Assembly (NCBI GenBank): GCA_012103255.1
Contig: WLXD01000004.1
Span: 248,001-312,000, forward strand
Reading direction: 5' to 3'
DNA: 64,000 nucleotides
Source of the DNA: Acidobacteriota bacterium
GTDB taxonomy: Bacteria; Acidobacteriota; UBA890; WLXD01
Shown: positions 28,621 to 30,768 of the stretch, piece by piece
How positions within the stretch are numbered: the stretch's first letter is position 1
Layout of the letters: every line of letters begins with the position of its first letter
Position numbers and translations under genes: made by a program
The notes under the pieces: generated by a model
Databases searched by the model: none
What the model was told of the DNA's origin: nothing
The model's input: the letters and a program-made list of their open reading frames with translations, nothing else

Positions 28621-30768
28621 TCAGTCGCGCTCTGGCTTCTTCCGCCAGAGCGTGAACTCAGCGACCGTGTGCTGGAATTTCCGGCGCGTCTCGCGGATCA
28701 CGAACGGGATGTCGCTCTGCTCGAGCAGTTCGAAGTCCGGCTCGAGTGCGCGACGCAGCCCGTGCAAGGTGGTCACGTTCTCGCCGTCTTCCTTGTAACC
28801 ACCAAGCCACTTGTCCTTGTCGGTGTGTTCGGTGAGCCAGGTGTAGGGCGACGTCAGAGCGAGGTAGCCGCCCGCGACGAGACGTTCCTTGGCGGCTGCC
28901 AGGAACGCCGCCGGATCGTAGAGCCGGTCGATCAGGTTCGCGCCGAAGATCAGGTCGTACCCGGTGTAGTGAGTCTTGAGGTTGCAAGCATCGTTCTGTG
29001 CGAACTTCACCCTATCGGCGGCCCCGCCCAGCCCGAGCGTCTCCAGTTTCGCCTCACGGAAGGACTCCAGGTCGCCTTCGTCTCGAACTGTGTATCGCCG
29101 GACGCCGTGCTCCTGCAACTCGATCGCGCTCACGATGAAACGCGTCGAGAAGTCGAGCGCGTCGACTTGCTCGAATTCACGGGCCAGCTCGAAACTCGAC
29201 CGACCGACCGAGCAGCCGATATCGAGCGCCTTCCGCTTGGGAGCGTCACCGATTCCGCTGAGCACTGCCTGGACGCAGGCCACCGGGAAGTTCGGAACGC
29301 CGAGGTACTCATCGCCGTAGTGGAACTCGAGGTACTCGGAGATCGAGTCGTCGGTCTCGTAGATGTTCCCCATCGCCTCGGGCAAGGCACCCGCCTCGAC
29401 GTAGCGGAAGCCCGCATGCTACGGGAAATGGCGACGGAACGCGTAGCGCGCGTCCCGCGTGGCCTCGTTACCGGTCGAGATCCATGAACCGCCCTTGATG
29501 AGATTGTGTTTGCCATCGAGCGTGGGCACGGAGAAGTCATCGTATGACGGGTGCACCTCGAAGCCGTCGAACGCATCGATGGGCGTCTCCGTCCACTGCC
29601 AGGTGTTGCCCACCACGTCGTAGAGCCCTGATTGCTCGAAACGATCCACGGCACAGGCCGAAGCCCAGTGCTCGAGATTGATGTTGCCGGGCGCCTGGTC
29701 CCAAAACGGATGGTCCGTCTCCACGCGTTCTGCCATGAGGTACCACTCGTCCTCCGTTGGCAACCGAATGTCTTTGCCGGTTCGCTGCGCTTCCCAGTTG
29801 CAGAACGCCTTGGCTTCGAGGTAATTGACGTCGACCGGCCAGTTCCACGGCATGTCGATTTCTTCGAGCATGGCACGGTAGCGGTAACCGCCCTCACCGT
29901 CGGGCACCCAGAACAGTGGATGCTCTGCCTTCTTGAAGGTGCGCCAACGCCAGCCCTCGTCGGTCCACAGAGACTCGTCGTTGTAGCCGCCAGCCTCTAC
30001 GAAATCGCGGAACTGTCCATTCGAAACGACAAACCGCGATGCCTTGAACGCGTTGACGTCGGCCTCGTGGGTGCCGTACTCGATATCCCAACCGTAGACG
30101 GCGTCCTGGCGGTCCTTGCCGATCGAGACCGAACCTCCGGGCACTTCGACGAGGCTGTTCTCGGGCGCGTCGCCGGCATCTGGGCAGTGCGGCCATTCAG
30201 CGTGCGGGCGCACCTGATCGACCGGGAGCTGACGCATCAACACCGATGATGTCTCGAGATGAATGCGCTCGTGCTCGATGCCCATCATCACGATCCAGAA
30301 CGGGCTGCTCCAGTCGATCGGCAGGGTGAGCTCCGCACTGGAGATCACGTCGTCGACGAGCGCGCGAACCTTGTCGCGATATTCCTGTACTTCGGCCACC
30401 GAAGCCCAGTCGTAATGACCGGTGTCGAGGTCGTCCCAGGACATCTCATCGACACCGATGGCCATCATGGCCTCGATGCGAGCGTCCACGCGTTCGTCGA
30501 TCACGCCGGCGACACGCAATTTGTTGACGAAGAAGACCGCTGTGTGGCCGTAGTAGAAGATCAGCGGATGACGCAGCGGCTCCGGGCGCATCGTGTACGC
30601 CTCTTCGTGAGCGATGCCCTCGAAGAGCTTCTCGTAGAGGTCGTAGGTGGCGTGGAAGTAGGCGCGAATCTCCTCGCGCTTCTGCTCGACATCGCCTGCG
30701 TTCAGGATCGTCGTCTGCGTCACGTTCAAGATTCTTTCTCCGAGGCTGCTCTCGTCACTGGCTGGCAA
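28621..30768 (-). pseudogene. ovoA: Ovothiol synthase OvoA, interrupted by one in-frame amber codon
   Basis: Read leftward, residues 1-449 hold the DinB-like domain with the iron site H166-x3-H170-x-E172 and RHPLIFYYGH (H67, H75), then the FGE-sulfatase-like domain ending ...YAFRRHFP. A TAG at 29421-29419 stops it. The same frame continues HAGFRYVEAGALPEAMGN into the C-terminal SAM methyltransferase domain (ALDIGCSVGRSSFELA), ending at 28621. Intact OvoA has this same three-domain order and usually a Gln before HAGFRYV. One C-to-T change (CAG to TAG) would explain it. The total is about 715 residues, near family length. OvoA joins cysteine sulfur to histidine, and the methyltransferase then makes ovothiol A. 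As written, only the sulfoxide synthase half would be made unless readthrough occurs. Confidence 0.9.

Follow-up and report, generated by a model that had tools for sequence, protein, structure and literature searches.

A single in-frame TAG codon interrupts an otherwise conserved ovoA gene in an Acidobacteriota genome assembly

OvoA is a 5-histidylcysteine sulfoxide synthase/4-mercaptohistidine N1-methyltransferase (TIGR04344 and TIGR04345; PDB 8khq). The two activities can also be carried by separate proteins, as the methyltransferase OvoM (PDB 9bxl) and the stand-alone sulfoxide synthases EgtB-IV (8vig) and OvsA (8ux5) illustrate. In-frame stop codons maintained by selection have been reported in bacterial genes; to guard against errors, that study relied on stops common to at least two species (PMC7918605).

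The ovoA gene considered here lies in an Acidobacteriota bacterium (GCA_012103255.1, contig WLXD01000004.1, 248,001 to 312,000, forward strand); this whole stretch of 64,000 nt is referred to as the window. Translation of the ovoA frame (window 30768-28621, minus strand) gives one internal stop only, a TAG at 29421-29419, in the context RYAFRRHFP(stop)HAGFRYVEAG (Table 1). In profile searches the upstream half scores 666.6 bits against TIGR04344 ovoA_Nterm (E 1.7e-200, cut-off 400) and the downstream half 324.5 bits against TIGR04345 ovoA_Cterm (E 3.9e-97, cut-off 170). Since both halves are far above the curated cut-offs, the frame is not due to chance, and the claim of an earlier note on this DNA, that the synthase and methyltransferase halves share one frame split by the TAG alone, holds. 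Among solved structures, the fused OvoA 8khq is the best relative of both halves, joined for the second half by OvoM 9bxl. The frame that carries the two OvoA domains is interrupted here by the TAG; in the sister species it is open. Translation is likely to start at TTG 30729, behind GGAGAAAGAATC and in register with the ATG of the sister gene, rather than at the mechanical ORF start 30768. The stop sits in a near-perfect hairpin (29407-29424, CCCGTA-GCA-TGCGGG), which the C of the sister sequence turns into a perfect 6-bp inverted repeat; the hairpin is a possible hot spot of mutation or sequencing error.

Table 1. Coordinates of the ovoA parts and of other interrupted genes (positions without a prefix are those of the window; G000 is this genome)
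Feature	Position	Strand	Remarks
ovoA upstream frame	29419..30729	-	TTG 30729 (likely start) to TAG; 436 codons before the stop; DinB_2 and FGE-type sulfoxide synthase; TIGR04344, PF12867, PF03781; OvoA 8khq_A, E 5e-174
In-frame TAG	29419..29421	-	CAG in the sister species; Gln in 78/78 relatives
Stop and codons HAGFRYVE	29395..29421	-	last conserved synthase-domain residues, beyond the stop
ovoA downstream frame	28621..29418	-	265 codons, then TGA 28623-28621; SAM-dependent N-methyltransferase; TIGR04345; OvoM 9bxl, E 8.5e-75
Earliest in-frame starts past the stop	29373..29385	-	TTG 29385 behind GAGG; ATG 29373; TIGR04345 domain from residue 20 of the downstream frame
Ser/Thr kinase with TPR repeats	L136:523-528 (G000:C6:220525)		TAG inside a conserved kinase motif, DV(stop)ALGVVLHELLTG; coding intact on both sides; 1/42 Pkinase matches
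Second kinase, frame change	L186:11345-11973 (G000:C1:51345-51973; near C1:51.8 kb)		11-bp tandem duplication (GTATTCACACG twice)
GMC-type oxidoreductase	L094:7027-8739 (G000:C9)	-	TAA at codon 414; same-genus sister open, 88% identical
rlmD (TIGR00479)	L221:28-1409 (G000:C4)		two frames; sister in one frame
MacB-type gene			TGA in 1 among the best 150 of 401 candidate matches
TonB-dependent receptor domain	G000:C7:29731-30916		two parts; different frames implied by coordinates alone
PPDK_N-type protein	L127:684		candidate in-frame TAG near the start, GGLQ(stop)GEYTAT

Two other genomes of the genus were compared, the sister G002 and G001. G002 encodes an intact OvoA of 704 codons, 82-83% identical to the present one, with CAG at the position of the stop; no OvoA match was found in G001. 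A set of 80 relatives was retrieved from other phyla; the codon at this site is CAG in 52 (G002 included) or CAA in 15, which covers all 67 that were readable. Alignment to OvoA homologues, a check proposed in the earlier note, places Gln at the stop position in 78/78 rows of an 80-row alignment besides this genome and G002. The TAG is not conserved anywhere among the genomes examined and is seen in one only. As the aligned codons indicate, a single coding-strand C-to-T change accounts for the stop, in line with the CAG-to-TAG origin that had been proposed from the DNA alone. The genes neighboring ovoA differ between this species and its sister, and upstream of the sister ovoA (L002:2952-3060) lies what resembles a short N-terminal piece of a kinase, closed by a TAG (MDRSQLGPYEIGDKLGEGAI, then the stop).

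The coding sequence beyond the stop shows no sign of decay. In the methyltransferase half, 63 columns show 97% or higher conservation in outgroups, and this genome differs at none of them; in the synthase half, it alone differs at three of 117 such columns. Relative to G002, the methyltransferase half has a dN/dS of 0.143 and the synthase half one of 0.112 (Nei-Gojobori), at a dS of 0.87-0.97, and apart from one single-residue gap near the end no lesion has been added after the stop relative to G002. Relaxed selection after the stop, as expected of a decayed pseudogene, is thus not seen (dN/dS 0.14, conserved columns unchanged). The earlier note was right that coding is preserved past the stop; the decay of the methyltransferase half in sister genomes by which it would have recognized a true pseudogene is not seen in G002, where OvoA is intact, and further lesions are absent here. 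With zero changes at the approximately 142 nonsynonymous sites in the 63 codons, a rough bound calculated by hand suggests that the gene is unlikely to have gone without constraint for more than about 0.02 substitutions per site, roughly one twentieth of the part of the synonymous distance to G002 that falls to this lineage. The absence of decay, together with the CAG of the sister and the Gln of the relatives, therefore implies that the stop is very young, or is false, or that selection still acts on the second half.

The position of the stop bears on whether the first half could work as a protein of its own. With readthrough of the stop, the TIGR04344 match extends from profile position 435 to 444/444 and the PF03781 match from 235 to 254 of 255; as both lengthen, the stop lies eight residues inside the synthase domain. 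Truncation removes the final eight conserved residues of this domain, four of which (Q436, G439, R441 and Y442, located at the stop or beyond it) are invariant in a 26-sequence alignment. HAGFRYVEAG, described earlier as a conserved linker, is indeed conserved past the stop, but HAGFRYV forms the conserved end of the synthase domain and is not linker alone. An AlphaFold model of the read-through protein has a mean pLDDT of 82.3, is poor from about residue 390 to 430 and places only a two-residue strand after the stop. Since the stop is off the domain boundary and removes conserved residues, a designed short synthase is unlikely. The function of the 436-residue product would presumably be impaired through loss of the invariant residues, so the functional short synthase contemplated in the earlier note has become less likely.

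A functional split, in which the methyltransferase would be started anew at TTG 29385 or ATG 29373 as an OvoM-like protein, is very improbable for the same reason, as the stop falls within the synthase domain and not past its end. Separate methyltransferases are known (OvoM/OvsM), TTG 29385 is preceded at 8 bases by a GAGG, and a start at either codon would keep the TIGR04345 domain whole. However, the GAGG is also found in the sister as plain coding sequence and therefore represents no adaptation for reinitiation.

Recoding of TAG is rejected. TAG is the commonest terminal stop: across 2.1 Mb of the genome it ends 477 (~55%) of 868 long frames (TGA 336, TAA 55), and within the window 18 of 34; it is thus the ordinary stop that the earlier note took it to be in discounting global recoding. 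Release factor 1 is present above its cut-off, and no tRNA with a CUA anticodon is found among those named by ARAGORN in the whole genome (45 tRNA matches); a tRNA-Gln with CUG is present. Two weak tRNA-like fragments that ARAGORN left unnamed appear by eye to be a degraded Arg TCT copy and an Asp GTC fragment. The genome is 95% complete, so a CUA tRNA could have been missed. This genome also contains a selenocysteine tRNA with anticodon TCA (L110:895-992, minus strand).

Readthrough without recoding, whether programmed or tolerated, would yield a short synthase plus some full-length OvoA from a maintained stop. The intact coding downstream of the TAG is consistent with it, as is the absence of further lesions from ovoA, which maintained readthrough also predicts. 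Bacterial in-frame stops under purifying selection have been reported, including TAG/CAG alternation at one site (PMC7918605). In the present case, however, the TAG occurs in one genome only, against CAG or CAA in the 67 relatives with a readable codon, and the short product would lack invariant residues of the synthase domain. The lack of a detected CUA tRNA, the presence of release factor 1 and the use of TAG as the main terminal stop also argue against it, as does RNA folding around the stop, which is at chance level (z-scores 0.21 and -0.35). Seen in one assembly, the TAG consequently falls outside the shared-stop criterion of PMC7918605, and readthrough of this kind is very improbable. 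Very improbable, too, is that the TAG is real and kept in the lineage, with low-level readthrough setting the ratio of free synthase to full OvoA; both 5-thiohistidine and ovothiol would then be made.

The ovoA gene is not the only interrupted gene of this genome (Table 1). The survey of breaks covered part of the genome, and a codon-statistics scan of 2.1 Mb for in-frame breaks yielded 53 candidates. Most of these look like normal adjacent genes sharing a frame or like antisense frames, and many in-frame stops from the sister comparison were likewise discarded as antisense shadow frames. Four scan candidates looked real, namely OvoA, a kinase, the GMC oxidoreductase and the PPDK_N-type protein, the last of which is unproven because no family model spans its stop. 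Three family surveys of approximately 45,000 residues contained two in-frame nonsense codons; extrapolated very roughly and with wide error, this would suggest tens of genes with in-frame nonsense in the whole genome. No nonsense breaks occur in 24 kinase matches of the two other genus genomes, a number too small to call a difference. MacB-type (FtsX permease) domains are very numerous in this genome, with at least 150 scored matches and 401 candidates.

Such breaks are relevant to a consensus or binning error, in which case the organism would have CAG and an intact OvoA. Residual indels are known to truncate proteins in single-molecule assemblies (PMC6785717). The complete lack of decay in the methyltransferase half favors an error, as do other clean single nonsense or frame changes in the assembly where the sister is open, for example in rlmD. 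On the other hand, the breaks include a C-to-T change (ovoA), a change to G (kinase, if TAC came before), a change to A (GMC) and an 11-bp tandem duplication (second kinase), and this variety is no less compatible with real mutations than with one type of error. Because they are of several mutational kinds, the breaks alone cannot tell error from real mutation. An error is a serious candidate, at slightly under an even chance, and is counted within the broader explanation that follows.

Very probably, the TAG is an ordinary CAG-to-TAG nonsense change that is either real and young (or a strain variant) or an artefact of assembly or consensus, these being taken jointly. In an ordinary OvoA gene, the conserved Gln codon CAG would have become TAG by one C-to-T change, and this change would be either real, as a very recent null mutation or a strain variant that entered the assembly, or a consensus error. 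If the stop is real, translation would end after 436 residues, leaving a synthase whose FGE-like domain lacks its final conserved residues, and the methyltransferase would be made at most at a low level, via basal readthrough or reinitiation. We infer both this effect on the OvoA protein and the young age of the stop. No programmed mechanism is needed. Among the three origins put forward in the earlier note, error and fresh mutation remain, and programmed readthrough is without positive support, as is a functional split. Annotation should list the gene as an interrupted OvoA, and reads should be checked before a lineage without ovothiol is claimed. Judging from the other breaks in this genome, an isolated in-frame stop in an assembly of this kind should not be taken for recoding unless accompanied by a conserved stop or a suppressor tRNA.

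Compared with known systems, the interrupted gene does not follow the separate OvoM, EgtB-IV and OvsA proteins, as the stop cuts the synthase domain and the pieces still share one frame. It resembles the nonsense-codon genes of PMC7918605 in its single CAG-to-TAG change and conserved downstream sequence; in contrast, those genes were accepted because their stop recurs in at least two species, and that of ovoA is seen in one assembly. With OvoA itself the gene shares both domains, their order, their spacing and the full length, at 55-60% identity to OvoAs other than that of the sister; it differs by one TAG, which replaces the invariant Gln codon.
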